This document shows, one piece after another, positions 6,427 through 50,299 of a stretch of DNA of 64,000 nt. Origin of the DNA: Terriglobia bacterium (GTDB lineage Bacteria > Acidobacteriota > Terriglobia > Acidiferrales > UBA7541); the NCBI GenBank assembly GCA_020072785.1, contig JAIQGG010000002.1, positions 248,001 through 312,000 of the forward strand, written 5' to 3'. The notes under the pieces are model-generated. The model was not told the origin of the DNA and ran no database searches. It saw nothing but the letters and a program-made list of their open reading frames with translations. The translations under genes and the position numbers were made by a program. The stretch's first letter is position 1; every line of letters begins with the position of its first letter.

Positions 6427-6529
6427 GGCCGCGGGCCTTCCCCTGGAGCGCTTTTCTGCCTTTGCCGTTCCCGCACAGGTGCACAGCAGTTCGATTGACG
6501 GCGGGGCAGTAACTCCGAAGAATAGAGCC

Positions 6530-13980: not shown

Positions 13981-14106
13981 GCGGGAGAAGAGATGGAAAG
14001 GTAGAAGCGTGGAACGGTTGCAGAGGTTTGGTTTTGCGGCAGGGATAGCCCGCAGGGACAGACCAGAGCGCGGGCGGCGGGGAACTACAACAATAAGGAG
14101 TGAACT

Positions 14107-27610: not shown

Positions 27611-28366
27611 TCAGATCTCCCCCGCGCCGGTGTGATGCGGCCCCACGACCTTCACGAAAATCTCCTCGAGGTCCTGCTCGCCGTGCTGCGCGCGGAGCCC
27701 GGCCAGCGTGGCTTCGGCGAGCAGCTTGCCGTCGTGGATGATGCCGATGGTGTCGCAGAGCTTTTCCACTTCGCTCATGACGTGCGTGGAGAAGATGACG
27801 GTCTTGCCGCGGTCGCGGCACTCGCGGATGAAGGCAAGGATGGTCCGCGCGGTCATGACGTCCAGCCCCAGGGTCGGTTCGTCAAAGATCATCACCGGAG
27901 GATCGTGCACCAGCGTGCGGGCGATGGAGACCTTCTGCTTCATGCCCGTGGAGAGTTTGTCGCAGCGCCGCTCGCGGAAGCTGTCCATTTCCAGCCGCGC
28001 GAAGATTTCCGCCACGCGCCGCTGCAGCGTGACCTCGTCCAGCCCGTTCAGCCGCCCGAAGTATTCCACCATCTCCTGCGCCGTCAGCCGCGGATAGAGC
28101 GCCGTGGCGGTGGAGAGAAAGCCGACGCTGGCGCGCACTTTTTCCGGCTGCGCGACGATGTCGTAACCGGCCACGGCGGCCGTGCCGTCCGAGGGCTCCA
28201 GGATGGTGGCCAGCATGCGCAGTGTGGTGGTCTTGCCCGCGCCGTTGGCCCCCAGCAAGCCGTAGACCCGCCCGGGCTGGCAGGTAAAGCTGACGTTTTC
28301 CACGGCGTGGATCTCTCCGCGCTTCTTGTCCCGAAACCGTTTGCAGAGACCGCGCGCTTCAATCAT
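27611..28366 (-). CDS. NatA-like ABC exporter ATPase
   Basis: A 251-residue ATPase with Walker [11 protein letters not shown], signature [19 protein letters not shown], Walker [14 protein letters not shown] and the switch His in FSTHVMSE. It pairs with the NatB-like permease immediately downstream. A 58-residue zinc ribbon gene lies 35 bases upstream on the same strand and may be in the same transcript. Confidence 0.92.
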
Positions 28367-28401
28367 GGCAAGGGATCATGGGATCGGACGTTTCCGGCTG
28401 T

Positions 28402-28578
28402 TCAGCCTTTATGGCAGCTGGGGCATTGCTTGGCGTCGTAGTTCTCCGGCGCCACGCGGAACATCCCGTTGCACTGGATGCACACTCGGTGGATGGCGGG
28501 AGCGCCCGGTGGCGGGACCGGTGGGGGCCCTTTATGTTCGGGCTTGTTTGCTTGGGGTGCGGCCGGTGCACTGCTCAT
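28402..28578 (-). CDS. 58-residue zinc-ribbon protein
   Basis: Read on the minus strand from the ATG at 28578: a Pro/Ala-rich N-terminal half, then a compact zinc ribbon CIQC...CPSCHKG with two CxxC knuckles 17 residues apart (VCIQCNGMFRVAPENYD then AKQCPSCH). It ends at TGA 28404-28402. It sits 35 bases upstream of the NatA-like gene. There is no Shine-Dalgarno, but a TAGAAT lies six bases before the ATG, which would make the message leaderless. Function is unknown; a regulatory or adaptor role is possible. Confidence 0.6.
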   Translation of the reverse strand: MSSAPAAPQANKPEHKGPPPVPPPGAPAIHRVCIQCNGMFRVAPENYDAKQCPSCHKG

Positions 28579-28584
28579 GAGCGG

Positions 28585-28590
28585 ATTCTA
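28585..28590 (-). promoter_or_regulatory. Candidate -10 element for a leaderless transcript
   Basis: TAGAAT on the minus strand ends six bases before the zinc-ribbon ATG. No clear -35 is visible. Transcription would begin at or next to the start codon. Confidence 0.35.
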
Positions 28591-28629
28591 GCACGAGACC
28601 GGCCGCCGCCGCGCCCACGCGCATTCCCG

Positions 28630-28658
28630 TTGGCCGGACAGGGAAACGCCAGTAGAAT
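28630..28658 (+). promoter_or_regulatory. Candidate sigma70 promoter for the CRP/FNR gene
   Basis: TTGGCC (28630-28635), a 17-base spacer and TAGAAT (28653-28658). The leader to the TTG start at 28703 would be about 38 bases. Confidence 0.5.
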
Positions 28659-28702
28659 CGAGCGGTTGCACCGGCGCGCGCGGTGCGGGAAATGAGGCGG
28701 CT

Positions 28703-29404
28703 TTGCCCCTGGGCGCAAACGCAGAAGCGATCTTGCGGCGGATTCCCCTGTTTGCCGGGCTGACGGAGAGCGAGCTGCACGCCCTGGCGGCGCGCGTCAG
28801 CTCCAGGCACTTCGGCCGCGGCGAGCTGCTGTTTTCCGAGGGCGATCCCTGCCAGGGTCTGTTCATTGTCGCCGCGGGCAAGGTGCGCATCTTCAAGATG
28901 TCCGCGTCCGGCCGCGAGCAGATCCTGGCGCTGGAAGGCGCGGGCAGCACGATTGCCGAACTGCCTGTCTTCGACGGCGGCAACTATCCGGCCTCGGCCT
29001 CGGCCGCCGAAGATGCGGAAGTGCTGTTCATCTCCCGCAAGGATTTCCAGAACTTCTGCCGCGAGCATCCCGAAGTAGCGCTGAAGGTGATTGCCGTGGT
29101 CGGCGGGCGCCTGCGCCGCCTGGTGGGCATTATCGAGGAGTTGTCCTTCACCACGGTGCGGCAGCGCCTGATCACCCTGCTGCTGCGCCTGGCGCAGGAG
29201 AAAGGCGCCATGAGCAAGCAGGGAATCCGCATCGAGCTGGGCGCCAGCCACCAGGAACTGGCCGCGGAACTGGGCACGGTGCGCGAACTGGTGTCGCGCA
29301 ACTTGGGGCGGCTGCAGGCCGAAGGCCTGATTGAGGTGGAGGGCCGGGAGATCATCGTGAAGGACGCCGCCGGGCTGAAACGCGAGCAGGCGGCCGCGGA
29401 ATGA
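28703..29404 (+). CDS. CRP/FNR-family transcription regulator
   Basis: A 233-residue regulator starting at TTG 28703, with GAGG five bases upstream. The cNMP-binding-like beta-roll (residues 15-125) lacks the N-terminal cysteine cluster of FNR, so it is not an obvious Fe-S oxygen sensor. A dimerisation helix precedes the Crp-type winged HTH (about 180-225). In the recognition helix Glu195, Ser198 and Arg199 (RELVSRNLGR) match the E--SR pattern of FNR/DNR-type proteins that read TTGA half-sites. The iron-repair gene ric lies 88 bases downstream behind a matching dyad, pointing to a nitrosative or redox stress sensor. Confidence 0.9.
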   Translation: MPLGANAEAILRRIPLFAGLTESELHALAARVSSRHFGRGELLFSEGDPCQGLFIVAAGKVRIFKMSASGREQILALEGAGSTIAELPVFDGGNYPASASAAEDAEVLFISRKDFQNFCREHPEVALKVIAVVGGRLRRLVGIIEELSFTTVRQRLITLLLRLAQEKGAMSKQGIRIELGASHQELAAELGTVRELVSRNLGRLQAEGLIEVEGREIIVKDAAGLKREQAAAE

Positions 29405-29429
29405 GGCCGATCCCCGTTTTTCCCGCCCC

Positions 29430-29471
29430 GTGACTTTTGTCACTGCCAGCCCCAGCAGGCCTCTCTAGGAT
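29430..29471 (+). promoter_or_regulatory. FNR/DNR-type operator and -10 upstream of ric
   Basis: GTGACTTTTGTCAC at 29430-29443 is a perfect 5-bp dyad with a four-base spacer, the geometry of CRP/FNR-family sites (TTGAC-N4-GTCAA type). TAGGAT at 29466-29471 is a candidate -10. A start at about 29478 places the dyad centre at -41.5, the class II activator position. No good -35 is seen, as expected for an activated promoter. Confidence 0.55.
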
Positions 29472-29492
29472 GAAGTCATCAGGGAGGCGAAA

Positions 29493-30221
29493 ATGCAACT
29501 TTCGCATGACAGCAAATTGAAAGATGTGGTTCTGAATCATCCCGCGACGGCCGTGGTCCTGGAAAAGGCCGGCCTGGATTACTGCTGCGGGGGCAAGCAG
29601 ACGCTCGGCGAGGCGTGTATGCAGGCGGGCATGCCTCCGGAGGAACTGCTGGCGCGGCTGCAAGAAGCGGCGAGCGAGGACTCGCCGGAGAAGCAGAATT
29701 GGGCCGCGGCGCCGCTCGGGGCGCTGGCCAGCTATATCGTCGAAAAGCACCACGGCTACGTCCGCGAGGCTCTGCCGCGCATCACCGCGCATCTGGAGAA
29801 AGTGGCGGAGAAGCACGGCGAACGCCACCCCGAACTCTTCAAGATCCGGCAGGATTTCGACCTGGTGAGCCGCGAGATGACGCAGCACATGCAGAAAGAG
29901 GAGATGATTCTTTTTCCCTTTATCCAGCAGATGTCCGATGCGGTGGAGAGCGGCGCCGGGCTTTACGCGCCCTTCTTCGGCAGCGTGCAGCAGCCGGTCG
30001 CGATGATGATGCAAGAGCACGATACGGCTGGCGGGCTGGTCAACGAGATGAACAGCCTGAGCGGCGGTTATGTGGCGCCCGCCGACGGCTGTACCACCTA
30101 TGAGCTGGTCTACCGCGAGCTGGCGGAATTCGACCACGACCTGCGCACCCACGTGCATCTGGAGAACAACATCCTCTTTCCCCGCGCCGTCGAGCTGGAG
30201 CAGAAGCTGACGTACCGCTAG
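29493..30221 (+). CDS. ric: Iron-sulfur cluster repair protein (RIC/ScdA/YtfE)
   Basis: A 242-residue di-iron protein that repairs Fe-S centres after nitric oxide or oxidative damage. The N-terminal ScdA domain has the conserved cysteine pair in GLDYCCGGKQTL. The hemerythrin-like domain supplies His/Glu ligands in IVEKHHGYVREALPRI, MTQHMQKEEMILFPFI, MQEHDTAGGLVNEM and DLRTHVHLENNILFPRA. The start follows GGGAGG. A strong rho-independent terminator closes the gene. The upstream CRP/FNR gene and operator suggest it is induced by that regulator. Confidence 0.95.
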   Translation: MQLSHDSKLKDVVLNHPATAVVLEKAGLDYCCGGKQTLGEACMQAGMPPEELLARLQEAASEDSPEKQNWAAAPLGALASYIVEKHHGYVREALPRITAHLEKVAEKHGERHPELFKIRQDFDLVSREMTQHMQKEEMILFPFIQQMSDAVESGAGLYAPFFGSVQQPVAMMMQEHDTAGGLVNEMNSLSGGYVAPADGCTTYELVYRELAEFDHDLRTHVHLENNILFPRAVELEQKLTYR

Positions 30222-30239
30222 TCCGGGTTGCACGCGCCG

Positions 30240-30276
30240 GCCCGCCGGGAGACCTCCACCCGGCGGGCTTTTTTTT
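30240..30276 (+). terminator. Rho-independent terminator after ric
   Basis: A perfect 10-bp GC-rich stem, GCCCGCCGGG (30240-30249) with its complement at 30259-30268, a nine-base loop, and a run of eight T at 30269-30276. Confidence 0.92.
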
Positions 30277-30328
30277 GTTTCCGGGGCTGGCGGCATTCCA
30301 GGGAGCGGTGGGGACATCCACATCCAGC

Positions 30329-30348
30329 GTGACCGCAAAGCGGTCAAC
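30329..30348 (-). repeat. GACCGC/GCGGTC palindromic repeat, copy 1
   Basis: Minus-strand copy of GTTGACCGC, TTT, GCGGTCAC. The GTTGACCGC half is exact. It lies between the ric terminator and the HlyD-like gene. Confidence 0.75.
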
Positions 30349-30450
30349 ACTACTGGGCTGGGTGTGGGCTCTCGCCGGACTCGCGCAAGAGGTTGCTGGA
30401 GAAAGCGCTCGGGGAATTGCTAGAATGAAGGATATCGGCTAGGAGTGGAG

Positions 30451-30493
30451 CGCCCTGCGGTCACACTGGGAGTTGACCGCTGCGCGGTCACAC
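30451..30493 (+). repeat. GACCGC/GCGGTC palindromic repeat, copies 2 and 3 in tandem
   Basis: A partial copy (CGCCCTGCGGTCACAC at 30451-30466) is followed by a complete copy (GTTGACCGC, TGC, GCGGTCACAC at 30472-30493). Both are followed by a TGGAG/TGGGAG-like tail. They lie about 110 bases before the HlyD-like start codon. Confidence 0.75.
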
Positions 30494-30602
30494 ATGGAGA
30501 GGTTGGCGAGGCAGCGCTGCCGGCCGGCATCCCCGCACAACTGGAGCAAAGTGCCGCGGAACGGCGGGAGGATTGTGGTCCGGCCCCGGCAAACGGATAA
30601 CC

Positions 30603-31859
30603 ATGGAACGCAAGCTGCGAAATCGGATTCTGTTGTTCCTGCTGCTGGCGGGCGTGATCGCCTATGTGCTGGTATGGATGAGCGGGCGCCAGCCGGCGGC
30701 CAAAATCGCCGCGGTCCTGCCCGCGCGCGAGAATTTGGTGGCCTCCATCAGCAGCAACGGGAAAGTGGAGCCGATCGCGCCGTTCGTGATGCGCGCGCAG
30801 CTGGCCACTTTCGTGGATAAAGTCTATGCGCTGGAAGGACAAAGCCTGCACAAAGGGCAGCCGATCCTGGAGCTGGACGTAAAGGACGCCGCGGCGCAAC
30901 TGGCGCAGGCCCGCGCCAGTCTGCTGCGCGCGCAGGACGATCTGCGCGCCGCCCGCGCCGGCGGGCGCAGCGATGACATCGCCCGCGTTACAGGGGATCT
31001 GGTGCGCGCGCAGGCCGAGCGCGACCGCCTGCTGCGCGACAACGAAGCCCTCAAGCGCCTGGTGGCCCAGCAGGCCGCCACCAAGGACGAGCTGGCCGCC
31101 AACGAAGTGGCTCTGGCGCGCGCGCAATCCGAATACAACCGCCTGGCCGCGGTTAAGCAGGAGTTTGCCCGCCAGGTGCTGCTGGACGCCCAGCGCGCCG
31201 CCCTGCAGGTCGAGCAGGCGCGCAGCGAAGTGGCCGCGCTCGAGGAAAAGGTCCGCGAGAGCCGCGTCGTGGCTCCCGCCGACGGCACCTTGTATTCCCT
31301 CCCGGTGCGCACCGGCGATTTCGTCAAGGTTGGCGATCTGCTTGGGGAGATGGCCAATCTCCGCCAGGTGCGCGTGCGCGCCTTCATTGACGAGCCGGAG
31401 CTCGGCTCGCTGGCTCCCGACGAGCCGGTGACTATTACCTGGGACGCTCTGCCCAGCCGCTCCTGGCAGGGCCGCACCACGGTCATTCCCAAGCAGGTGG
31501 TGGCGCGCGGCACGCGCAGCGTCGGCGAGCTGTTGTGCGCCGTGAACAACGACAAGCTCGAGCTGCTCCCCAACACCAACGTAAACGTGCTCATCAACGC
31601 CAAGGAGCGTCAGCACGTCCTGGCCGTGCCGCGCGGCGCCGTGGAGCTGGAAGGCGGGCAGCGCTATGTTTTTGTCGTCAAGGACAACGATCTGGGCGTC
31701 GGCAAGAAGCACCTGGAGAAGCGCCAGGTGCAGGTCGGCATCGCCAGCCCCACCAGCTATGAGATCACCGGCGGTCTCCAGGAGGGCGAGTATGTCGCGC
31801 TACCGAGCGATGTCGATCTGAAGGACGGCATGGCCGTGCGCGTGGTCAATCTGGAGTAG
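30603..31859 (+). CDS. HlyD/MacA-like periplasmic adaptor
   Basis: A 418-residue membrane fusion protein. It has an N-terminal anchor (ILLFLLLAGVIAYVLVWM), a biotinyl-lipoyl half-domain, a long coiled-coil hairpin (about residues 95-220, rich in Ala/Gln/Arg heptads), the second lipoyl half (VVAPADGTLYSLPVRTGDFVKVGD) and beta-barrel and membrane-proximal domains. The ATG at 30603 was chosen because it directly precedes the basic residues of the anchor. It is first of a run with a TPR protein, an FtsX-type permease and a TolC-type channel, so it should bridge the inner-membrane and outer-membrane parts of one efflux pump. Confidence 0.9.
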   Translation: MERKLRNRILLFLLLAGVIAYVLVWMSGRQPAAKIAAVLPARENLVASISSNGKVEPIAPFVMRAQLATFVDKVYALEGQSLHKGQPILELDVKDAAAQLAQARASLLRAQDDLRAARAGGRSDDIARVTGDLVRAQAERDRLLRDNEALKRLVAQQAATKDELAANEVALARAQSEYNRLAAVKQEFARQVLLDAQRAALQVEQARSEVAALEEKVRESRVVAPADGTLYSLPVRTGDFVKVGDLLGEMANLRQVRVRAFIDEPELGSLAPDEPVTITWDALPSRSWQGRTTVIPKQVVARGTRSVGELLCAVNNDKLELLPNTNVNVLINAKERQHVLAVPRGAVELEGGQRYVFVVKDNDLGVGKKHLEKRQVQVGIASPTSYEITGGLQEGEYVALPSDVDLKDGMAVRVVNLE

Positions 31860-31886
31860 CAAGCGGGCGGCGGGGCAGGGTTTCCG

Positions 31887-32879
31887 ATGCGCAGCTCCAT
31901 CCTGGCACTCTTTCTTCTGGCCTCCGGCCTCGGGGCTGGCTTCACCGCGGCGCAAGGAGATTCGCGCGCGCTTTTCGAAGCGGGCCGCCAGGCCTACGAA
32001 GCCAGCCGGTATCCCAGGGCCGTGCAGCTTCTCCAACTGGTTGTGGCGGGCGATTCCCGGAACGCCGACGCTCTGCTCCTGCTGACCAAGTCCTACATCG
32101 AACTGGCGCAATACGACAAGGCCGTGGACAGCGCCGAGCGTGCCGTGGCCCTCGCCCCGCAGAGCTCCCTCTACCATCAGTGGCTCGGCAAGGCCTACGG
32201 CGAAAAGGCCGAACACGCTTCCTGGTTCTCCGCGATCTCCCTGGCCAAGAAGACGCACAAGGAATTCGAGATCGCCGTGCAGCTGGACGAGCACAATTTC
32301 GCCGCCCGCCAGGACCTCATCGAGTTCTATTGCAGCGCCCCGGGCATGGTCGGCGGCGGAGTAGATAAAGCCACGCCGCACATCGCCCGCCTGCTGGTGC
32401 TGGATGCCTCCGAAGGGCATTACGCGAAGGGCAACTGCCGCCGCCAGAAGAAGGATTTTGCCGCGGCGGACGCCGAATTCACCCTAGCCCTGGAATCCGG
32501 CCCGAAAGCCCCGGACCTGATCTACGACATCGGCGACTATGCCGTGAAGCAGAAGCAGCCGGCGCGCCTGCTGGCTGTCGTGGAGGCCGGCCAGAAGGCG
32601 GATCCCGCCGATCCCCGCGGCGATTACTACCAGGCCGTCGCCTTCCTCCTGAAAAACGAAAAAGCCGAGCAGGCCGAGCAGCTCTTGCGCTCCTACCTTC
32701 AGCGCGCACCGGTGCGCAACGCTTATCCGCGCCCCGCCGCCGCGCACGACTGGCTGGGGCACGCCCTCGAACGGCAGGGCAAGATCGCCGAGGCCTTGCA
32801 GGAATTTCGGGCCGCCCTGCAGGCCGATCCACGCAACAAGGATGCGCGTGAGTCCGTGGAGCGTCTGGAAAAGCACTGA
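31887..32879 (+). CDS. Secreted TPR protein
   Basis: A 330-residue protein with a signal peptide (ILALFLLASGLGAGFTAAQG) and at least five TPR-like repeats, for example ALFEAGRQAYEASRYPRAVQ, KSYIELAQYDKAVDSAERAV and AHDWLGHALERQGKIAEALQ near the C-terminus. It lies 27 bases after the adaptor gene. It is probably periplasmic and may help assemble or load the efflux complex. This is inference from position. Confidence 0.8.
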   Translation: MRSSILALFLLASGLGAGFTAAQGDSRALFEAGRQAYEASRYPRAVQLLQLVVAGDSRNADALLLLTKSYIELAQYDKAVDSAERAVALAPQSSLYHQWLGKAYGEKAEHASWFSAISLAKKTHKEFEIAVQLDEHNFAARQDLIEFYCSAPGMVGGGVDKATPHIARLLVLDASEGHYAKGNCRRQKKDFAAADAEFTLALESGPKAPDLIYDIGDYAVKQKQPARLLAVVEAGQKADPADPRGDYYQAVAFLLKNEKAEQAEQLLRSYLQRAPVRNAYPRPAAAHDWLGHALERQGKIAEALQEFRAALQADPRNKDARESVERLEKH

Positions 32880-33059
32880 GCGGACTCTCGCCAGAAAGAG
32901 ATCCCATCGACGCACTTCTCTTCGGACCACGCGGCGGCGCCAGGAAACGCGCGATGGCGCTGGCGCAGATCGCAGCGCAGGATGACGGCATGGCCCTCGA
33001 TGCGCGAAGCGCCATGGTATCGTTTGGAGGTAGACCAGTGAAGGGCCGGGCATAAGCCG

Positions 33060-34262
33060 ATGATGAATCTGCGCGAGACATTCACCGTTGCCACCGACGC
33101 GCTGCGCGCGAATAAGCTGCGCGCCATCCTCACCTCCATCGGCGTGATCATCGGCAGCGCTTCCCTGGTCCTGGTGGTCACCGTGGCGCTCACCAGCCGC
33201 AAGTTCGTCATCTCCCAGATCGAAGGCGTGGGCTCCAACCTGGTGTGGGCGGAAATGGTCAAGCCCCCGGACAAAGTCCTGCCTCTCAGCCACGAAATTA
33301 CGCTTGCGGATATGGAGGCCGTGAAGGCCTCGGTGCCGGAGGTGGTGGAGGTGGCGGGCATCCGGGAATTGCCCATGACCGCCATAGTCGGCGGCACGGT
33401 ACGGGCGGTGAATCTGATCGGCGTTACCGAGGGTTACCAGACCATCCGCCGCCTGGTGATTTTCCGCGGCCGCTTCTTTGATTCCGTGGACATGGAGACG
33501 CGCGGCAAAGTCTGCCTGATCACCGAGCAGCTGGCCGCGCGGATCTTCCGCCAGGGAAACCCCATCGGCAAGCCCCTGCGCATGGGCGAGCTGACCTTTA
33601 CGGTGATCGGCGTGTTCCGCGAGCGCGTCACCACCTTCGGCCTTTCCGAGATCCAGGACGAGTCCGTGCTCATCCCCTTCACCCTGATGAAGTACTACAC
33701 CGGATCGGACGTGGTGCGCCTGCTGGACGCCCAGGCGCGGCGCCCCGAAGACGTGCCGCGCGTGCAGCGCCAGATCGAGCTCTTGCTGCGCAGCCGCCAT
33801 CCCGCCGAAGCCGAGTACAAGGTGCAGACCCTCACGGCCATTCTTGCCGCGGCGCAGAACATCTCCCTGGCGCTGACCATCGTGCTCCTCCTGATCGCCT
33901 GCATTGCCCTGCTCATCAGCGGCATCGGCATCATGAACATCATGCTGGTCACGGTTACCGAGCGCACCAAGGAGATCGGCATCCGCAAGGCCATCGGCGC
34001 CTCCCGCCGCGAAATCCTCGCGCAGTTTCTCGTGGAAGCTTTTCTCCTCAGCGGGGGCGGCGCCGTGATCGGGATTCTGGTGGGCCTGGCCATTCCCGCG
34101 GTCATCCAGCCCTTTCTCCCCGGCAACCTGCGTGTGCCGGTTTCCGGCCTTTCCGTGGTGATCTCCTTCGTAGTTTCCTGCTCCACGGGGATCTTCTTCG
34201 GCTACCTGCCCGCCAACGAAGCCGCCAAGCTGCAGCCCGTCGAATCCTTGCGCTACGAGTAA
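33060..34262 (+). CDS. MacB/FtsX-type ABC permease without fused ATPase
   Basis: A 400-residue permease with the MacB layout. One N-terminal helix (LTSIGVIIGSASLVLVVTVAL) is followed by a periplasmic domain of about 210 residues (MacB_PCD) and then three C-terminal helices with the FtsX core (ISGIGIMNIMLVTVTERTKEIGIRKAIGASRREI). MacB proteins normally carry an N-terminal ATPase domain, or sit beside a LolD-like ATPase gene. Neither is present here, so the ATPase must be supplied in trans. An alternative in-frame start is the ATG at 33063. Confidence 0.9.
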   Translation: MMNLRETFTVATDALRANKLRAILTSIGVIIGSASLVLVVTVALTSRKFVISQIEGVGSNLVWAEMVKPPDKVLPLSHEITLADMEAVKASVPEVVEVAGIRELPMTAIVGGTVRAVNLIGVTEGYQTIRRLVIFRGRFFDSVDMETRGKVCLITEQLAARIFRQGNPIGKPLRMGELTFTVIGVFRERVTTFGLSEIQDESVLIPFTLMKYYTGSDVVRLLDAQARRPEDVPRVQRQIELLLRSRHPAEAEYKVQTLTAILAAAQNISLALTIVLLLIACIALLISGIGIMNIMLVTVTERTKEIGIRKAIGASRREILAQFLVEAFLLSGGGAVIGILVGLAIPAVIQPFLPGNLRVPVSGLSVVISFVVSCSTGIFFGYLPANEAAKLQPVESLRYE

Positions 34263-37277: not shown

Positions 37278-38786
37278 ATGCCGGATGTAATGAAGACGCT
37301 GCTGCTGAATCCGCCGAGCTTTGAGAATTTCGACGGCGGAGCCAGTTCGCGGTGGCCCGCGACGCGCGAGATCGAATCCTACTGGTACCCCGTGTGGCTG
37401 ACCTACCCGGCGGGCATGCTCCCGGGCAGCCGCCTGCTGGACGCCTCGCCGCACAAGGTGAGCTGGAAGCAGACCATCGAGATCGCCAAGGACTACGAAT
37501 TTCTGGTCCTCTTTACCTCTACTGTCGGGTTCGCCAGCGACCTGAAACTCACCCGCCTGATCAAGGAACAGAATCCCGGTCTGAAGATCGCCTTCGTCGG
37601 CCCGCACGGGCACATCAAGCCGGACGAGACCCTGCAAGCCAGCGAAGACATCGATTTCGTGACCCGCGGGGAGTTCGATCACTCCGTCGTGGAATTCGCC
37701 CAGGGCCAGCCGCTCGCCGAGATCGCCGGGATCAGCTACCGCAAGGACGGCAAGGTCGTGCACAACCCGGACCGCGCGCAACTGCACACCGCGGAACTCG
37801 ATGCGCTCCCCTTCGCCGCCGAAATTTACAAGCGGGACCTGGAGATCGAACGCTATACCGTGCCCTTCTTGCTGCATCCCTTCGTTTCCTTCTATACCAG
37901 CCGCGGCTGCCCCGCGTTGTGCACCTTCTGCATGTGGCCGCAGACCATTTCCGGGCACGCCTGGCGCGTGCGTTCCGCGGAGAACGTGGCCCGCGAAGTG
38001 AAGTTCGCCATCGAAGCCTTTCCGCAGATGAAGGAAATTTTCTTCGACGACGACACCTTTAACATCCGCAAGGACCGCGTCCTCGAAATCTGCAAGCTCT
38101 TCAAGCCCCTCAAGTTCCGCTGGTCCAGCACGGCCCGCGTGCACAGCGACTACGATACGCTCAAGGCCATGGCCGATGCCGGCGCCCGCCTCTTCATCGT
38201 GGGCTTCGAATCCGGCGATGCGCAAATCCTCAAGAACATCAAGAAGGGCGCTACCGTCGAGATGGCCCGCACCTTCATGAAGAACTGCCGCAAGGTCGGC
38301 ATCCGCGTGCACGGCGACTTCATCATCGGCTTGCCCGGCGAGACCCGCGAGTCCATCGCCAATACCATCGAGTTCGCCAAAGAGCTCGATTGCGAGACCA
38401 TCCAGGTTTCCCTGGCCCATGCCATGCCCGGTACCGAGCTCCACGACCAGATGGCCCGCGACGGCTTCCTGCGCGTCGAGGCCCTCGCCGATTCCAGCGG
38501 CCACCAGCTCCCGCACATCGAGTTCCCGCACCTCTCCAAGGCCGAGATGATGGCCGGGGTCCACCGCTTCTACGACGAGTACTACTTCCGCCCCAAGGTC
38601 GCCTGGCGCATCGTCCGCGAAGCCCTGTGGGACGCCCACGAGCGCAAGCGCCTGTATCACGAGGCCGTGGATTTCCTTAAACTTCGTGCGGAACGCCTGA
38701 AGTGGGCCCGCCAACAGCACGACGAGCCGGCCAAAACCGTGGTCCCCGTGCCGGGCGCCACCACTACGGCTTCGGCCAACGATTAA
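37278..38786 (+). CDS. hpnJ: Hopanoid biosynthesis B12-binding radical SAM protein HpnJ
   Basis: A 502-residue protein with an N-terminal cobalamin-binding-like domain (about residues 5-165, opening KTLLLNPPSFENFDGGASSR, characteristic of HpnJ) and a radical SAM domain. The cluster cysteines are Cys211, Cys215 and Cys218 (CPALCTFC). HpnJ acts late in extended hopanoid side-chain synthesis, converting the glucosaminyl group of bacteriohopanetetrol into the cyclitol ether. Two hpnI-like genes are within 8 kb, but hpnK (deacetylase) is not seen in the window. Translation starts at the ATG after GAGGGTGAAGA. Confidence 0.93.
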   Translation: MPDVMKTLLLNPPSFENFDGGASSRWPATREIESYWYPVWLTYPAGMLPGSRLLDASPHKVSWKQTIEIAKDYEFLVLFTSTVGFASDLKLTRLIKEQNPGLKIAFVGPHGHIKPDETLQASEDIDFVTRGEFDHSVVEFAQGQPLAEIAGISYRKDGKVVHNPDRAQLHTAELDALPFAAEIYKRDLEIERYTVPFLLHPFVSFYTSRGCPALCTFCMWPQTISGHAWRVRSAENVAREVKFAIEAFPQMKEIFFDDDTFNIRKDRVLEICKLFKPLKFRWSSTARVHSDYDTLKAMADAGARLFIVGFESGDAQILKNIKKGATVEMARTFMKNCRKVGIRVHGDFIIGLPGETRESIANTIEFAKELDCETIQVSLAHAMPGTELHDQMARDGFLRVEALADSSGHQLPHIEFPHLSKAEMMAGVHRFYDEYYFRPKVAWRIVREALWDAHERKRLYHEAVDFLKLRAERLKWARQQHDEPAKTVVPVPGATTTASAND

Positions 38787-38796
38787 TCCACCGCAG

Positions 38797-39225
38797 ATGG
38801 GACACCAACGCAGGCTGCGCATCAAGACTCTGGCCTTGGTCTGTGCCATGGTCGTGTGCGCCAACGCCGGAGACCTGCTGCTCAAACGCGGCATGACCCA
38901 GGTCGGAGCGGTCCAGCTTTCCGCCGCGGGACTCTCCCACGCTTTCCTGCTTACGGTTCTTAATTCCACGATCTGGATCGCCATTCTGTTTCTGCTGGGC
39001 TTCATGTTCAGCTATATGACCGCAGTTTCCTGGGCGGACTACAGCTACGTGATGCCTGCGGGAGCCTTCGGCTATGCGGCACTGACGTTTCTGGCGGTGG
39101 TCTTCCTCGGGGAGACGGTGACGCCGCGGCGCTGGGCCGGCGTGGCGCTCATCTGCGCCGGCGTGCTTCTGGTGGGACAGACGAAGCCGCGCACCACCGC
39201 TGCGACGCCCCAGGTGACGCCATGA
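38797..39225 (+). CDS. Small EamA/SMR-type membrane protein A
   Basis: A 142-residue protein with four transmembrane helices, similar to half an EamA transporter (AFGYAALTFLAVVFLGETVTPRRWAGVALICAGVLLV is the family end; shown motif GETVTPRRWAGV). It begins 10 bases after hpnJ and overlaps the next small membrane protein by 4 bases. The pair resembles ArnE/ArnF, which together flip an undecaprenyl-phosphate sugar; that role is inferred. Confidence 0.8.
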   Translation: MGHQRRLRIKTLALVCAMVVCANAGDLLLKRGMTQVGAVQLSAAGLSHAFLLTVLNSTIWIAILFLLGFMFSYMTAVSWADYSYVMPAGAFGYAALTFLAVVFLGETVTPRRWAGVALICAGVLLVGQTKPRTTAATPQVTP

Positions 39226-39593
39226 TGCGCAGCATGGGAATGCTCGGGGTGCTGATTCTGAGCAGCACGGGGGGTGAAATCGCCATCACCCACGGGATGA
39301 AGGTGGTCGGTGAGCCGGAGCGGTTGCGGCCCCGCGCTTTGCTGCTCTTCCTCGGGCGGGCCCTTCGCAATACCTGGTTCTGGACCGGCGTGCCGCTGCT
39401 GGCGCTTTCCTTTTATTCCTTGCTGGTGCTGCTCTCCTGGGAGCCGGCCAGTTTTGTCATTCCGGCCTCCGCACTGAACTACGTCGTGGGAACGTTTGGG
39501 GCCAAGTACCTCCTCGGCGAAGAAGTGAACGCTGCGCGCTGGGCGGGTGTCATCCTGGTCTGTGCCGGCGTGGCCCTGGTGGCGGCGGGATAG
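39222..39593 (+). CDS. Small EamA/SMR-type membrane protein B
   Basis: A 123-residue four-helix protein, partner of the preceding gene, whose stop it overlaps (ATGA). The C-terminal motif GEEVNAARWAGVILVCAGVA parallels that of the partner. Dual-gene, antiparallel arrangements are typical of heterodimeric SMR-like flippases. It lies within the hopanoid/glycosyltransferase run. Confidence 0.8.
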   Translation: MMRSMGMLGVLILSSTGGEIAITHGMKVVGEPERLRPRALLLFLGRALRNTWFWTGVPLLALSFYSLLVLLSWEPASFVIPASALNYVVGTFGAKYLLGEEVNAARWAGVILVCAGVALVAAG

Positions 39594-39681
39594 GCAGAGA
39601 AGAGCAATGACGGCTCCCCGGACCGCGGTGTGCAGCAAGAAGATCAGTCTTTGATTCTTGGGAAGGCCGGCTCGGGAGAGA

Positions 39682-41037
39682 ATGAGGGTGGGCGTGGCAC
39701 ATCGCGATTCAGCAGTGCTCTCGACCGCAGCCGCTTCTCGATCCACGCGCACCATCTTGATCCTGGTCCTCGCTGCGCTGGTGGTCCGTATCGCCGTGAT
39801 TCCCTTTGTGATCGATGAGCACCTCAAGCCCGCTCGCGATCACTGGAAGTTCGGCTGGGAGGAAGGCAAGATCGCGCGCTCGCTCGCGACCGGCCAGGGC
39901 TTCAGTTCACCCTTCTTCGAGCGCACGGGCCCGACCGCCTGGACCACTCCGGTATATCCAGGACTGCTTGCCGGCGTCTTTTGGCTTTTCGGCGTCTACA
40001 CGCGTGCTTCGGCCTGGGCCATCCTTATTTTGAACGCTGTCTTTGCCTCTCTCACCGGCATCCCCGTCTATTTCCTGGCGCGGCGCGGCTTCGGACCGCC
40101 CGCCGCCTTTTGGGCCGGCTGGGTCTGGACTCTCCATCCCTACTCCATCTTTCTCTCCTCCAGCTTCATCTGGGGAAACTGCCTCGATGCTCTGATGATG
40201 GCCCTGCTCCTCTGGGTCACGCTGGCGATCGAGGACCAGACCAGCCTCGTGCGCTGGATCGGCTATGGTCTCCTGTGGGGAGTGGCGGCGCTGAACAATG
40301 CGGTCGTCCTCTCCACGCTTCCTTTTCTTCTCGGATGGCTGGCCTGGCGCCGCCAGCGGCGCGGCAGAGCCTGGCGCTTGTCCACGATTGCCACGCTCTT
40401 GACGCTGGCCCTCACCGTCTCCCCTTGGTTCGTCCGCAACTACGCCACCTTCGGCCGCTTCATTCCCTTCCGCGACACCTTCTGGCTGGTCTTCTGGATG
40501 GGCAATACCGGGGACGCCTCCGCTCCCTATCCGGACTGGGCCAATCCGGCGCACAACGATGCGGAGCTCGCGAAATACTACCGCCTCGGAGAGCTTGGCT
40601 ACATGCAGGAAAAGCGCAGTGCCTCGCTCGATTACCTCCGGCAGCACCCGGGCCTGTTCCTGCGGACTTCCGCCAAGCGCTTCCTCTTTACCTGGACCGG
40701 TTTCTGGTCCTTCAGGCCGGCCTATCTGGCTGCGGAGCCGCTGGAATTCGCCAACATTGGATTTTGCGCCGCGCTCACCGCGTTGCTGCTGGCCGGATTG
40801 CGCCGCGCCTATCTCCTCAACCGGCCGGCCGTGCTTCCTTTTGCGCTTGTCTTGCTCAGTTATCCGCTGGTGTACTATTTCACGCACACGGACATCGACT
40901 ATCGCCATCCCATCGATCCCGTAGCGGCGGTTTTCATGGGCGTGCTGATCGCGGGCTGGCGCAGGAAGCACACGAAATCCGGCGCGGGATTCGGGACCAC
41001 GGAATTCGTATCCGAATCCCCGGGCTTGCGGGGATAA
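39682..41037 (+). CDS. GT39-like membrane glycosyltransferase
   Basis: A 451-residue polytopic protein with about 10-12 helices. An acidic residue pair near the first periplasmic loop (IDEHLKPARDHW) and FWLFGVYTRASAWAILILNA fit the ArnT/PMT superfamily, which moves sugars from polyprenyl phosphate to lipids or proteins on the periplasmic side. ATG 39682 follows GGGAG by three bases; a TTG at 39658 is in frame but has a weaker site. The hpnI-like gene begins six bases after its stop, so the two are surely co-transcribed. Confidence 0.8.
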   Translation: MRVGVAHRDSAVLSTAAASRSTRTILILVLAALVVRIAVIPFVIDEHLKPARDHWKFGWEEGKIARSLATGQGFSSPFFERTGPTAWTTPVYPGLLAGVFWLFGVYTRASAWAILILNAVFASLTGIPVYFLARRGFGPPAAFWAGWVWTLHPYSIFLSSSFIWGNCLDALMMALLLWVTLAIEDQTSLVRWIGYGLLWGVAALNNAVVLSTLPFLLGWLAWRRQRRGRAWRLSTIATLLTLALTVSPWFVRNYATFGRFIPFRDTFWLVFWMGNTGDASAPYPDWANPAHNDAELAKYYRLGELGYMQEKRSASLDYLRQHPGLFLRTSAKRFLFTWTGFWSFRPAYLAAEPLEFANIGFCAALTALLLAGLRRAYLLNRPAVLPFALVLLSYPLVYYFTHTDIDYRHPIDPVAAVFMGVLIAGWRRKHTKSGAGFGTTEFVSESPGLRG

Positions 41038-41043
41038 GGGCGA

Positions 41044-42098
41044 GTGGACCGGGAGATGGCCTTGCAACTATTGCGATGGGCGGCGCTGCTTACAGCGCTC
41101 GGGCCGCTGGTCTACTACGCCCTGGCCATCTACTGCGGCTGGGATTTTTTCCGCCGCGTGCGCCGCACATCGCCGGCCGCTTCTTCTTTCACTCCTCCGG
41201 CGAGCATCCTCAAGCCCGTGCGCGGGGTGGACTGCGGCGCCTATGAGAATTTCGCCAGCTTCTGCCGCCTAGACTACCCCGAATACGAAATCCTCTTCGC
41301 CGTCGGCGACGCCGATGATCCCGTCATCCCGCTCATCGAGAAGCTGCAGCGCGAATTTCCCCGGCGCCGCATCCGGCTGCTCGCCTCCGTGCCCCAGATC
41401 GGCGCCAACCGCAAGGTGAACAACTTGTGCGCGCTGGTGCGCGCCGCGCAGCATGACCTGCTGGTGATCAACGATAGCGACGTGCGCGTCGAGCCCAGCT
41501 ATCTGCGGGAAGTGGCTGCGCCGTTTGCCGATCCCCGGCTGGGCGCGGTGACCTCATTCTTCCGCGGCCGCGTCGAGGGCGGTGTCGCCGCCGCCCTGGA
41601 AGCCCTGGTGCTCGCCACAGAGACGGTGCCCAATGCCCTCGTGGCCCGGAAAATCGAGGGCAAGGTGCAATTCGCCTTCGGCTGGACCATGGCCACCACC
41701 CGCCAGCACCTCGCCTCCATCGGCGGCTTCGAGGCCATGGCCAATCACCACTCCGACGATTTCGAGCTGGGCAACCGCAGCTGACCTTCGGCCTGCCCTG
41801 GGCCGTCCTCGCCGCCCTTCTGGCGCCTTCCGTCACAATCGCCGCGAGCTATCTCGCGGCGTATCTGTTCCTGCGCTTGTTGCTCGTCTGGACCGTGGGC
41901 GTCTGGGGACTCGACGATCCCGTGACGCGGAAAAGCCTGTGGCTCGTGCCTCTGCGCGACGCCTTGAACTTTGCCGTGTGGATCGCCGGTTTTTTCACCA
42001 GCAAAATCCGCTGGCGCGGTCTGGAGTTCCGTGTCCAGAAGGGGCTTCTGGTTCCCGTGCAGGACGCCGGGGATGCGCAGGCCGCTCCCCGCGCCTGA
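41044..42098 (+). pseudogene. hpnI: hpnI-like glycosyltransferase, copy 1, interrupted by deletion and frameshift
   Basis: HpnI adds GlcNAc to bacteriohopanetetrol. The N-terminal part reads from GTG 41044 to a stop at 41782-41784 (246 residues). It has an N-terminal helix, ASILKPVRGVDCGAYENFAS, the DxD-type region (INDSDVRVEPSYL) and HHSDDFELGNR. After the stop, homology resumes in another frame (LTFGLPWAVLAALL... to stop at 42096-42098), including WGLDDPVTRKSLWLVPLRDA. Compared with copy 2 about 142 bases are missing at roughly 41779-41783. That segment would encode the QxxRW catalytic motif. The gene is probably non-functional unless this is an assembly error. Confidence 0.82.
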
Positions 42099-42228
42099 AC
42101 GCTCTGTTTTTTTGGCGGCCGGTGGTTGAATCAGGGCGATCCAAGTACTATAGAAGCTCCAAAGAATAAATCAGAAGGGACGCCGCAGGGCGTAACTCCT
42201 TTCGCCGGTCAAACGTCCAAGACCAGAT

Positions 42229-44082
42229 ATGCGCCTGAACGCCAAGCCAGCCTCCGGTACACAGGACACCAGCCGGCGTGCGGCACTGTTCCTTCTCCTG
42301 TTTTTCTCCGCGCTCGTCTACCTCGGCAATGCGGGCTTTCCCGGCCTGCTCGATGATGCCGACTCTTCCCACGCCATGGTCGCTCGCGAGATGCTGCAGC
42401 GCCACGACTGGGTCATCCTGTACATGAACGGCATCCGCTACCTGATGAAGGCCCCGCTGCACTACTGGGCCGTGGCCGCCAGTTACCGCGCGTTCGGAAG
42501 CAACGAATTTTCCACGCGTCTGCCCGTGGCCCTGGCCATGATCGGCCTGGTGCTGCTGGTGAACGCCTTTGCGCGCCGCTTTTTCGGCCCGCGTGCCGGC
42601 CTCTATAGCGGTCTGGCCGCCTGCACCGGCGCGGGATTTTTTCTCTTCACGCGCATTATGATTCCGGAGGCCATCTACGCCCTGGAATTCACCGCCGTCT
42701 TCTATCTGTTTCTGCGGGGCTGGACCGGCTCGCTCGAGCCGCGCCTGGCCTACTGGGGAGCCGCGCTGTTCACCGCGCTGGCCATGCTTACCCGCGGCCT
42801 CGTCGGGGTGATTTTTCCCGTGGCCGTCCTCGGCCTGTTCATCCTGGCCACGCGGGGCTGGGACCGCTGGCGCGAGTTGCGGCCCGTTTCCAGCAGCCTG
42901 GTCTTTCTCCTGGTTGCCGCCCCCTGGCACATCCTCGCCAGCCTCCGCGCGCCCACCTTCTTCTGGTCGTACTTCATCAACGAGCATTTCAAGCGCGCCG
43001 TCGGCACCCGCTTTCCACCGGACTACGAAGCGGTCCCGCTGTGGTTGTGGCTCGGCGCGCATTTCATCTGGTTCTTTCCCTGGAGCGTCTTTTTTCCAGG
43101 GGCTTTGCGGAATATCCCCCATCCCCGCACCTGGAAGGCATTGTCTATCGAAGGACAGGCGCGGCTGCTGCTGCTCTTTTGGGCCGGATTCATTCTGCTC
43201 TTCTTCTCGCTCACCTTTGGTTCGCGCATGGAGTATTACAGTTTCGGCGCCTGGCCGGCCATCGCCATGCTCTTGGGTACTGGCCTGGCGCAGGCGGAGC
43301 AGGATGGCCGGCGCTGGGTGGGCGCGATGCAGTCGGCGCTGGCGCTTCTCGGCGCGGGAATCGCCGGCGTGCTGGCCACCCTGCTGTGGCGCTCCGCCAA
43401 CGTGCAGGTCCATGGCGATATCGCGTCGCTTCTGCAGGAGCGGGAAATCAATTTCTACCGCGTCTCCATGGCCCATGTGTTGGATCTGACCCCGCAGGCC
43501 TTTGCCGTGCTGCGGCTCCCGGCGGCGCTGGCTGCCGTGGCTTTGTTGTGCGGTTTCGGGGCCGCTTGGTGGCTGCGCCGCGCCCAGCGCGCCTCCGGCG
43601 CGGCGATCTGCATGGCCGCCACTATGGCCGTGTTTTTTTTCGCTGCCAATATCGCCCTGGGCGATTTCGGACCCTATCTTTCGGCGCGCCCGCTGGTGCG
43701 GAAAGTGCAGTCGCAGATGCGCCCGGAGGACGTGGTGGTCTTCTACGGCGAGTTTGACCTCGGCTCGAGCGTGGCTTTCTACACCCATCGGCGGCTGCTG
43801 CTTTGGAATGGGCGCTACAACAATCTCCTGCCAGGCTCTTACTATCCCGATGCGCCCCATCTGTTTCTGACGGATGCGGACTTTCTCCCGCTCTGGCAGG
43901 GCCCGCAGCGCGTCATCCTGTTTGTGCCCGCGGAGAAGCGCCAGGAAGCCATCCAGCGGCTCCCGGATGCGCGAGCCCACCTGCTTGCCGAATCCGGCGG
44001 AAAAGCCGTCTACGTCAATCATCCGCTTTCCGGCTCTTCTGCTCCGGGCGCCCCGGCGCCCGGAGCGGCGCCGGGAAATTGA
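42229..44082 (+). CDS. ArnT/PMT-like glycosyltransferase
   Basis: A 617-residue integral membrane enzyme of the ArnT/GT83 kind. It has about 11-12 helices, a diagnostic first periplasmic loop with acidic residues (GLLDDADSSHAMVAREML), the GIRYLMKAPLHYW segment typical of undecaprenyl-phosphate-sugar transferases, and a soluble C-terminal domain (about residues 490-590). It lies between the two hpnI-like genes. Related enzymes attach aminoarabinose or other sugars to lipid A; a hopanoid or other lipid acceptor is a guess from context. Confidence 0.87.
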   Translation: MRLNAKPASGTQDTSRRAALFLLLFFSALVYLGNAGFPGLLDDADSSHAMVAREMLQRHDWVILYMNGIRYLMKAPLHYWAVAASYRAFGSNEFSTRLPVALAMIGLVLLVNAFARRFFGPRAGLYSGLAACTGAGFFLFTRIMIPEAIYALEFTAVFYLFLRGWTGSLEPRLAYWGAALFTALAMLTRGLVGVIFPVAVLGLFILATRGWDRWRELRPVSSSLVFLLVAAPWHILASLRAPTFFWSYFINEHFKRAVGTRFPPDYEAVPLWLWLGAHFIWFFPWSVFFPGALRNIPHPRTWKALSIEGQARLLLLFWAGFILLFFSLTFGSRMEYYSFGAWPAIAMLLGTGLAQAEQDGRRWVGAMQSALALLGAGIAGVLATLLWRSANVQVHGDIASLLQEREINFYRVSMAHVLDLTPQAFAVLRLPAALAAVALLCGFGAAWWLRRAQRASGAAICMAATMAVFFFAANIALGDFGPYLSARPLVRKVQSQMRPEDVVVFYGEFDLGSSVAFYTHRRLLLWNGRYNNLLPGSYYPDAPHLFLTDADFLPLWQGPQRVILFVPAEKRQEAIQRLPDARAHLLAESGGKAVYVNHPLSGSSAPGAPAPGAAPGN

Positions 44083-44132: not shown

Positions 44133-45345
44133 TTGCCGATCCTGCTTCACTCGCTCTGGCGTTACGCGCTGCTGCTCGTGGCGGCGGCGCCCCTGGCCTA
44201 TTACGCCGCCGCGACCTTGGCCGCCGCGCGCTTTTTCCGCCGCGAGCGCGCCCGCCAGCTCCCCGCGTTTACTCCCCCGGTGAGCGTCCTGAAGCCCGTG
44301 CGCGGCGTCGATTTCGCTTCCTACGAAAATTTCGCCAGTTTCTGCCTGCAGGACTATCCCGACTTCGAGCTGCTCTTCGCCGTCAACGATTCCGCCGATC
44401 CCGCCGTCGAACTGATCCACCGCCTGATGGCCGAATTCCCGCAGCGCCAGATCCGTCTGTTCATTGGCGCGCAGCCCCTCGGCGCCAACCGCAAGGTCAA
44501 CAAGCTCTGCCGCCTGGCCGCCGCGGCGCGCCACGATATCCTCGTCGTCAGCGACGGCGATGTGCGCGCCGGCCCGCGCTACCTGCGCGAAGTCGCCGCC
44601 CCCTTCGCCGATCCGCAGACCGGCGTCGTCACCTGCTTCTACCGCGGCATCGCGCAAGAAAACCTCTTTGCCGCTATCGAAGCCATCGGCGCCTCTTCGG
44701 ATTTTTTCGCCGGCGTCCTCATGGCCCATTGGCTCGAGGGCATGAGCTTCGCCCTGGGCGCCACCATGGCCACCACCAAAGCCTGGCTCGCCAAAATCGG
44801 CGGCTTCGAAGGCCTCGCCGCCACGCACTCGGACGATTACGAGCTCGGTCATCGCATCGCCCTGCAAGGCGGCCGCATCGTCCTTTCCCGCGAACCCGTC
44901 TGGACCATGTATCCGGCGCAGTCCGCGCGAGGTTTCTGGGAGCATCTGGGAGCATCAGGTGCGCTGGGCGCGCACCGTGCGCCTCTGCCGCCCGCTTTCC
45001 TTCGCCGGTCTGATCTTCACGCACGGCCTGCCCTGGGCCCTGCTCGCCGCGCTCCTCGTTCCCGGCAAAGCCTTGGCCGCCGCTTGGCTCGCCGGCTGGC
45101 TCCTCCTGCGCCTGCTGCAGGCCTGGGTGGTCGGCGTGTGGGGCGTCGGCGACGACGTTCTGCGCCGCAAGCTCTGGCTCGTGCCCTTCCGCGACGCTCT
45201 GTACTTTGCCGTCTGGCTCGCCAGTTTTACTTCCAATCGCATCACCTGGGGCGGCGCCGAGTTCGCGATGCAAAAGGGCCAGATGATCGCCGTCGAAGAA
45301 GACAACCCTGCCGCCGCGGCCCTTTCCACACGCCCGCGCAGTTAG
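44133..45345 (+). pseudogene. hpnI: hpnI-like glycosyltransferase, copy 2, frameshifted by a 10-bp tandem duplication
   Basis: From TTG 44133 the frame encodes VSVLKPVRGVDFASYENFAS, VSDGDVRAGPRYLREV and THSDDYELGHRIALQGGRIV, as expected for HpnI/GT21. At 44935-44954 the sequence TCTGGGAGCA occurs twice in tandem. Removing one copy restores ...GFWEHQVRWARTVRLCR, giving the QxxRW motif and an intact protein of about 400 residues ending at 45345. As written, the frame shifts right before that motif and continues to an unrelated end at 45545. Copy 1, about 3 kb upstream, is damaged in the same region. Confidence 0.87.
44935..44954 (+). repeat. 10-bp tandem duplication inside hpnI copy 2
   Basis: TCTGGGAGCA at 44935-44944 is repeated exactly at 44945-44954. 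A single unit keeps the hpnI frame; two units break it. The arrangement could change by replication slippage. Confidence 0.95.
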
Positions 45346-45523: not shown

Positions 45524-45598
45524 TGGGAGGTCGTCCAATCGGTAGGACTCCAGACTCTGACTCTGGCTATCCTGGTTCGAGTCCAGGCCTCCCAGCCA
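45524..45598 (+). tRNA. tRNA-Gln (anticodon CTG), CCA encoded
   Basis: A full cloverleaf can be drawn. The acceptor stem is TGGGAGG (45524-45530) with CCTCCCA (45588-45594). The anticodon arm is CCAGA-CTCTGAC-TCTGG, anticodon CTG. The T arm is CCTGG-TTCGAGT-CCAGG. G at 45595 is the discriminator and CCA at 45596-45598 is encoded. The 5-bp stems are perfect. Confidence 0.96.
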
Positions 45599-48421: not shown

Positions 48422-49834
48422 TCAATCGCCGGTCTTGGAGAGGATCTTTACCAATTCGTATAAGAACGTCTGGCCTTCGTAGAAGGATTGCACGCTCATC
48501 CGTTCATCCCGTCCATGGAAGCGGATGTCATCGCGGTCCATGAAAAGACCCTGGACTCCATAAGTCGGAATGCCAGCCGCGCGCAGGTATGCCCCGTCGG
48601 TTGCGCCCATGACCATGGTTGGCACGACCGGCACACCGGGCCAAAGAGTGTCCGTGACGCGGCTAACGGCTTTCAATACATCCGGCCGCAAAGCAGAAGC
48701 CGGTCCCTTCGTCACGTCGTGGATAATCTTCACGGTGACCTGGTCGTCTGCCAGGATCTTTTGCAACGTGTTCTGCACATAATCGACGGAATCCTCGGGC
48801 AGGACCCGGCAGTTCACGGTCGCAGCCGCAAGTTGTGGCAAAGCGTTCATCGCGTGCCCGCCTTCCAATTGCGTTGCCACACAGGTAGTGCGGAGCGTGG
48901 CGTTCCACGCCGGAGAAGCCGCTGCAACCCGCGGCATGGCCTCCTGCGAACCTTCGGCGACCTTCGCGAGATCTTCTTTCAGGGGGCCCGTTTCGAGCTT
49001 GGCCATCTGCTGGAAATAAGCCGCGGTCACTTCGTTGGTCTTCAGCGGAAATCCGAAGTGCGAAAGGCGTTCCAGAGCGCCGGCGAGATGATAGATGGCA
49101 TTATCCGGCACCGGCAGCGAGCTGTGACCGCCCTTGTTTCGCACCTCCAGCCGAAAATTGATCACGTACTTCTCGCTCACCTGCAAGTCGTTGGAGATAT
49201 TCTTGCCGCCCGCCGATTCGCCCCAACCGCCCTCGTTCAGAGCCAGCTCTGCATCGATCAGATCCCGGTGGTTCTTGAGCAGCCAAACGACACCGTTGTA
49301 CGGACCGCCGCCCTCTTCATCCGCGGTAAGCGCCACGATGATATCGCGGTCGGGCCGGAACCCTTCCTGCTTGTAGCGGATCAAGTTTGCGATCCAGATG
49401 GCCGCCTGTGCCTTATCGTCACCGGTGCCCCGGCCGTAAAAGTAGCCATCCTTTTCAATGAATTGAAACGGGTCCAGACTCCAGTCCTCCCGCTTGGCTT
49501 CCACGACATCCGTGTGGGCGAGAAGCAGAAGCGGCTTGCGGGCCCCCGTGCCGTGATAGCGAACCACGAGATTAGCCTTCTTTGGGTTCGCGCCGCCCAC
49601 AAAGATATCGGACTCGGGGAATTCCGCGGCTCTCAACCGCGCTGCCGCTGCCCGGACAACGGGAGTGGTCGCGCCCGTCGTATAACCAGACTGGATTTCG
49701 ACAAATTCTTTGTAGATAGCGTGCGCGAGCTGTTTTTCCGCCTCCGGCCGCATCGATTGGGCGCTGAGGGTAGCCGCGCAGAGAAACGGGATGAGGAGCA
49801 ATCCGAGGATGGGACACTTTTTTACGGTCAGCAT
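48422..49834 (-). CDS. Exported M20-family metallopeptidase
   Basis: A 470-residue peptidase with a signal peptide (ILGLLLIPFLCAATLSAQS). Zinc ligands and catalytic residues are in LLLAHTDVVEA (His, Asp) and LTADEEGGGPYN (Glu-Glu). A dimerisation domain follows (VRNKGGHSSLPVPDNAIYHL). It ends with a conserved ligand region (IRFHGRDERMSVQSFYEGQ, His ligand). M20 enzymes of this type cleave C-terminal residues of di- or tripeptides. It is probably periplasmic or secreted and involved in peptide scavenging. It is not obviously linked to its neighbours. Confidence 0.92.
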   Translation of the reverse strand: MLTVKKCPILGLLLIPFLCAATLSAQSMRPEAEKQLAHAIYKEFVEIQSGYTTGATTPVVRAAAARLRAAEFPESDIFVGGANPKKANLVVRYHGTGARKPLLLLAHTDVVEAKREDWSLDPFQFIEKDGYFYGRGTGDDKAQAAIWIANLIRYKQEGFRPDRDIIVALTADEEGGGPYNGVVWLLKNHRDLIDAELALNEGGWGESAGGKNISNDLQVSEKYVINFRLEVRNKGGHSSLPVPDNAIYHLAGALERLSHFGFPLKTNEVTAAYFQQMAKLETGPLKEDLAKVAEGSQEAMPRVAAASPAWNATLRTTCVATQLEGGHAMNALPQLAAATVNCRVLPEDSVDYVQNTLQKILADDQVTVKIIHDVTKGPASALRPDVLKAVSRVTDTLWPGVPVVPTMVMGATDGAYLRAAGIPTYGVQGLFMDRDDIRFHGRDERMSVQSFYEGQTFLYELVKILSKTGD

Positions 49835-50299
49835 CGCGACATTGTTCCACGATGGGCATATTGATGCAACTTTTCAATGCCGCCTTTTCAATGCCGCCAC
49901 ACTTCTCGCGCGATTGCCTGAAGCCAATGCCCCTATGCTCTGGAGGGAGCCGATCGCCTTCCAGCGGCTTACCCGAGTGTGTTTAGGAAATGGCTCTGCT
50001 TGGCCGCCGAGTGTTTAGCGCTAGCTGGCGGGAACAGCCGTGGGGGCTGAAAAACTCACTCATTATCACCAGCCATCGGCAGGGTTACCCGCCCGCCGAG
50101 GAAACCCCACCGCTACTAGGCAGAAATGAGCGGCCAAGAGAGAGATGCGGGTATGGCAACCCAGGGCGAGGAGTTAGTTGCGCGTCGGAAAGCGGGCTGC
50201 TTATACTGGCCTGTAGCGCGGCCCGTCATGGGAACCTTTCCGCGGGTGCAGGCAGTAGTGCAGGCCGGCGGAGAACTTGAGGCACGGATTTAACCAGAC
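49835..50299. other. Gap of 465 bases upstream of the GGDEF gene
   Basis: Only a 14-bp perfect tandem duplication (49871-49898) stands out. No tRNA, riboswitch or convincing short gene is seen. Promoters for both flanking genes (divergent) should lie here. Confidence 0.5.
49871..49898. repeat. 14-bp tandem duplication
   Basis: TTTTCAATGCCGCC occurs twice in direct tandem, just upstream of the M20 peptidase gene. Confidence 0.9.

Follow-up and report, generated by a model that had tools for sequence, protein, structure and literature searches.

Two neighbouring hpnI paralogues interrupted by independent indels in a subdivision 2 acidobacterium: a probable recent loss of HpnI

The hpnI region and its two lesions

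The window, a 64,000-nucleotide stretch of one contig of a Terriglobia bacterium, carries two broken genes of hpnI, a sugar transferase for hopanoids (membrane lipids), among intact genes for sugar and lipid modification (Table 1). Copy 1, whose break went unmentioned in the earlier sequence-only reading of this DNA, lies 2 kb upstream of copy 2.

Table 1. Coordinates of the genes and lesions in the hpnI region (window positions)
Feature	Position	Strand	Remarks
hpnJ	37278–38786	+	Intact; TIGR03471, 720.9 bits (cut-off 577.6)
Two small EamA membrane proteins (ArnE/F-like flippase pair)	38797–39593	+	Intact
PMT_2 family membrane glycosyltransferase	39658–41037	+	Intact
hpnI copy 1	41044–42099	+	Also broken; N part 41044–41778, C part from 41781 in another frame
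Junction of the 148-bp deletion in hpnI copy 1	41777–41779	+	From the own-versus-sister alignment
PMT_2/ArnT-like glycosyltransferase	42229–44082	+	Intact; lies between both hpnI copies
hpnI copy 2	44133–45345	+	Frame broken at 44945; TIGR03472 match on both sides of the lesion
10-bp tandem duplication, TCTGGGAGCA twice plus TC	44935–44956	+	Shifts the frame by +10 bp directly ahead of the HQVRW motif

The TTG start of copy 2 is that of the sequence-only reading and is uncertain. Direct reading bears out what was claimed there, namely that TCTGGGAGCA stands twice in tandem at positions 44935–44954 and shifts the frame of the gene; the run of period 10 is 22 nt long (2.2 units). With both copies read, the HpnI sequence is lost after GFWEH and nonsense continues to position 45545 in the frame from 44133. 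With one copy read, the frame runs through to the normal end at 45345, as had been predicted, and gives a protein of 400 aa (GFWEHQVRWARTVRL...). The profile TIGR03472 is matched at positions 8–264 before the repeat and 266–370 after it, indicating that the duplication is the sole defect of copy 2. The break had been placed right before a QxxRW motif; the position is correct, but the motif reads HQVRW, with H in place of the Q or R of (Q/R)xxRW, and the same H is present in all relatives. A tRNA-Gln gene (CTG) is located just downstream of copy 2, at positions 45524–45598.

The TCTGGGAGCA tandem exceeds chance: when the window was shuffled, a tandem with a unit of at least 10 bp arose once in ten shuffles. 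It is also the only tandem of its kind found breaking a gene in 524 kb of this genome.

In copy 1, the alignment to the closest relative (sister locus L041) ends at sister position 13862 and restarts at 14008, with 148 bp missing. The deleted segment, from after DDFELGNR to LTFGLPW, contains the HELRW motif, and its loss also shifts the frame; the N part matches TIGR03472 positions 4–233 and the C part positions 285–367. In the protein alignment, the lost segment overlaps the lesion site of copy 2. Perfect microhomology at the deletion was considered and rejected, because the sister sequence differs on the 3′ side and just 0–3 bp can be claimed.

The genome (3.73 Mb, 11 contigs, 98.9% complete) holds no HpnI match above the curated cut-off of 310 bits. 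Its best scores, 261.9 and 232.4 bits, belong to the two hpnI copies and fall short because of the two lesions, while the sister copies reach 340.8 and 361.8 bits and HpnI above the cut-off is present in 44 of the 61 genomes searched. The next match is a distant glycosyltransferase (116 bits) with similar-scoring counterparts in many congeners. In neither copy do the catalytic core and a (Q/R/H)xxRW motif share one frame, copy 1 having lost the motif and copy 2 carrying it out of frame, whereas a motif of the HELRW or HQVRW type was found in the orthologues checked. The two genes belong to the HpnI family by descent and are not intact members.

Elsewhere in the genome, the genes for squalene-hopene cyclase and HpnH are intact and lie side by side on contig C2 at 1.01 Mb, and an hpnK-like deacetylase gene is intact on contig C8, with a score below the family cut-off, as in congeners.

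The segment 37278–45345 brings together hpnJ, the ArnE/F-like EamA pair, the two transferases of PMT_2/ArnT-like type, and both HpnI genes. In congeners, too, several of these genes are found with hpnI, a grouping suggestive of a polyprenyl-carried sugar module tied to HpnI rather than of plain hopanoid glycosylation. Synonymous divergence from the sister is 0.54 in the PMT_2 gene at 39658–41037 and about 0.2 in its neighbours, as if the former had been replaced by recombination in one lineage.

Relatives and the age of the lesions

The closest relative is the metagenome-assembled genome (MAG) Terriglobia bacterium SRVP_26, which is syntenic at about 91% nucleotide identity and carries both hpnI copies intact in the same order (copy 1 with 402 codons; copy 2 at L041:10001–11203, 400 aa). 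The other relatives are Acidobacteria gp2, Candidatus Acidiferrum, and Acidoferrales MAGs.

All 27 copy 2 loci at which the site can be read have a single 10-mer and an intact frame, and all 13 copy 1 orthologues are intact and keep the motif. Of the 36 genomes of the genus, ours alone has the two-copy string; the other 35 lack it. At the repeat site the sister reads TTTCTGGGAGCACCAGG; on our branch the C after AGCA has become T, so that TC flanks the unit on both sides.

In two further species of the genus HpnI genes are also broken, at three loci: L180 (G030:C168), L181 (G029:C340), and L182 (G030:C235). Genome G030 has a nonsense TGA in a copy-1-type hpnI and a frame break in a third HpnI paralogue, which is also frame-broken in G029; both of these breaks sit in the C-terminal membrane part of the third paralogue. 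The gene hpnJ is whole in 32 of the 36 genomes. These cases come from fragmented MAGs and do no more than suggest that HpnI copies are lost now and then in the genus.

Window positions 27786–34144 are about 98.9% identical to a sister contig (G007:C29), and from 34144 on the identity is about 92%, so a boundary of recent recombination or exchange near 34.1 kb is likely. Right after the stop of copy 2 in the sister (L041, about 11204–11250), a short repeat of the CTCGAAA type is expanded, with hardly any of it in our genome. The sister genome also contains many copies of short dispersed intergenic, REP-like repeats (L122:11620–11670 and L138:13000–13330).

Pairwise dN/dS values against the sister are 0.22 (N part) and 0.11 (C part) for copy 1 and 0.19 and 0.14 for copy 2, all inside the range of the neighbouring genes. 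The earlier impression that codon use and conservation downstream resemble a maintained gene is supported, with purifying selection on both sides of the lesion; downstream drift, which had been named, together with uniformly two-copy reads, as a refuting sign, was looked for and not seen (0.14 for the C part of copy 2).

Polarised with up to six outgroups, the amino-acid changes in the hpnI copies are equal on our branch and on the sister branch. We counted 12.5 and 11 nonsynonymous changes on our branch against 91 and 83 expected under neutrality since the split, in a simple branch count in which ambiguous sites were split half to each branch. The 95% upper limit on the neutral part of our branch is about 8% for each copy, and by this count both lesions would date to about the last 8% of it. 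The persistence of codon constraint downstream makes the lesion of copy 2 very recent; its recency, one of three options in the sequence-only reading, is supported, since the two branches are equal in nonsynonymous changes and every relative has one copy of the 10-mer.

The gene hpnJ has 9 amino-acid changes on our branch and 2 on that of the sister (p about 0.07, not significant); a first sign of relaxed selection after HpnI loss is a possible reading of this non-significant excess.

Origin of the lesions

Frame breaks were surveyed in stretches totalling 524 kb of our genome and 720 kb of the sister, of which 180 kb could be aligned, with about 135 coding-like ORFs; lesions that split an alignment are visible only in the locus region of this sample, where alignments were merged. 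Of the 46 genes aligned in the neighbourhood of the locus, only hpnI copy 1 (−148) and copy 2 (+10) show a clear net change of frame where the sister gene is intact; small unbalanced indels at alignment ends were left out of this count. No other convincing frame-breaking lesion was found among the approximately 135 genes over 180 kb, the candidates being effects of start sites or spurious ORFs. Those at positions 55460, 69365, 104065, 269401, and 315743 of contig C2 are extended starts or spurious ORFs.

Six further tandem duplications of 10–20 bp, all with lengths indivisible by 3, were also examined and set aside. The one at window positions 49870–49898, a perfect 14-bp duplication (CTTTTCAATGCCGC), is intergenic and lies upstream of a minus-strand peptidase-like gene (48422–49834). 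On contig C2, the tandem at 378829 lies in a sister alignment without net length change; that at 397091, where the sister differs by 5 bp net, is probably shared; those at 11549 and 465255 are within repeat-rich, poorly conserved stretches; and that at 6502 was assessed from reading frames only.

We favour, at a probability of about two in three, a recent and probably sequential loss of HpnI in one lineage of subdivision 2 Acidobacteria by two ordinary indel mutations. Copy 2 would have been inactivated by a single 10-bp tandem duplication, the simplest route to which is slipped replication at a pair of TC dinucleotides spaced 10 bp from each other in TTTCTGGGAGCATCAGG; judging from the sequence, TC on either side of the unit would permit a 2-bp slippage. 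Copy 1 would have been inactivated by an independent 148-bp deletion. In each copy the lesion removes the (H)xxRW motif and the membrane part at the C-terminus or puts them out of frame, and for this reason neither gene should yield a working glycosyltransferase. The hopanoid core and hpnJ remain. Loss of one copy may have relaxed selection on the other. Provided that the lesions exist in the living cells and the proteins are dead, losing the sugar step was presumably tolerated or favoured.

That both lesions fall on one paralogous pair speaks most strongly for loss of function and against random error, and the second broken copy shifts weight away from a switch or an error towards recent function loss. 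It should be noted that recency is also compatible with polymorphism or assembly error, and that the lesions may be absent from the population or unfixed in it.

An error of sequencing or assembly, with a faulty consensus standing for a genome that really has a single 10-mer (and perhaps a full-length copy 1), agrees with the singleton state and the lack of downstream drift. In a survey of frame transitions, frameshifted genes that were unclustered and had good homologues to either side often proved to be sequencing errors or fresh indels (PMC3711429). The lack of any other convincing frame error in about 135 genes nevertheless indicates high consensus quality; base-calling errors do not usually take the form of a perfect 10-bp duplication or a 148-bp deletion; and the error would have to strike both paralogues of one gene by accident (about 1e-4 for two random genes of 135). 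Since the sole convincing lesions in this sample are in these paralogues and are of different kinds, we regard error as less likely, and on balance rather improbable. Real broken alleles segregating with intact ones, of which the assembler chose the broken path and which imply no switching, would suit the extreme recency of both lesions and a metagenome-type consensus that hides variants; the broken allele must then dominate at two sites 3 kb apart, and we consider such a polymorphism distinctly unlikely.

Phase variation, in which copy 2 would be switched on and off by slippage within the tandem 10-mer, had been offered as an option in the sequence-only reading and gains from the fact that dropping one unit restores the frame and from the conserved 3′ part of the gene. 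It finds no support in the comparison: there are only two units, while known slippage loci typically have longer, many-unit tracts (examples in PMC3711429); the absence of the repeat from all 35 congeners and the single unit in all orthologues mean that no repeat is maintained; and the irreversible deletion in copy 1 points to loss of function. Our literature search returned no paper on phase variation of hopanoids and nothing usable on slippage rates of short repeats. We hold it very improbable that such slippage is at work, and equally so that copy 2, with copy 1 gone, is a live two-state switch by which a soil bacterium toggles glycosylation of hopanoids or another lipid through gain and loss of a 10-bp unit. 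Preservation of HpnI activity by programmed frameshifting or by separate translation of the N and C parts could draw on a GTG start at 44959, from which the C part is open to 45345; it is hardly credible, given that the frame is unbroken here in every relative, that the duplication is unique to our genome, and that copy 1 shows no comparable arrangement and lacks 148 bp.

According to a review of the hopanoid pathway, HpnI acts before HpnK and HpnJ (PMC12583986), and therefore loss of HpnI should halt both later steps if Acidobacteria share this route. That they do is uncertain, because an ArnE/F-like pair and two ArnT-like transferases are present here and because in a 2017 survey of Acidobacteria subdivisions 1 and 3 had hpnI and hpnJ but no hpnK (PMC5462960).

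Neither a small duplication nor a small deletion is unusual as a genetic event. Should both lesions be real, this organism is a natural HpnI double mutant beside a sister species with both copies, providing a ready comparison for the role of HpnI in Acidobacteria, where hpnI and hpnJ occur with no clear hpnK. The case also warns that hpnI-like DNA in a genome does not equal production of a sugar-bearing hopanoid.

Comparison with known systems

Like slipped-strand phase-variable (contingency) loci, copy 2 has a tandem repeat inside the ORF of a surface- or lipid-modifying enzyme, and loss of a unit restores the frame; unlike them, its repeat has two units and is not conserved, and in the one genome of the species it shows a single state. 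The tract, 2.2 units of 10 bp, falls short of hypermutable length and is kept in none of the 35 relatives.

The likeness to HpnI (TIGR03472), the bacteriohopanetetrol GlcNAc transferase, lies in the profile match over the retained parts and in congener orthologues that score above the cut-off; in contrast to intact HpnI, both copies here are frame-broken and under the cut-off, and the function in Acidobacteria is a predicted one.

The locus resembles a recent bacterial pseudogene formed by a short tandem duplication or microdeletion: the lesions are singletons, close relatives are intact (with syntenic orthologues in the sister), no drift has accumulated after the lesion, and the genes carry no further one. 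It differs from the typical case in that two paralogues of one function were struck independently within a short time.
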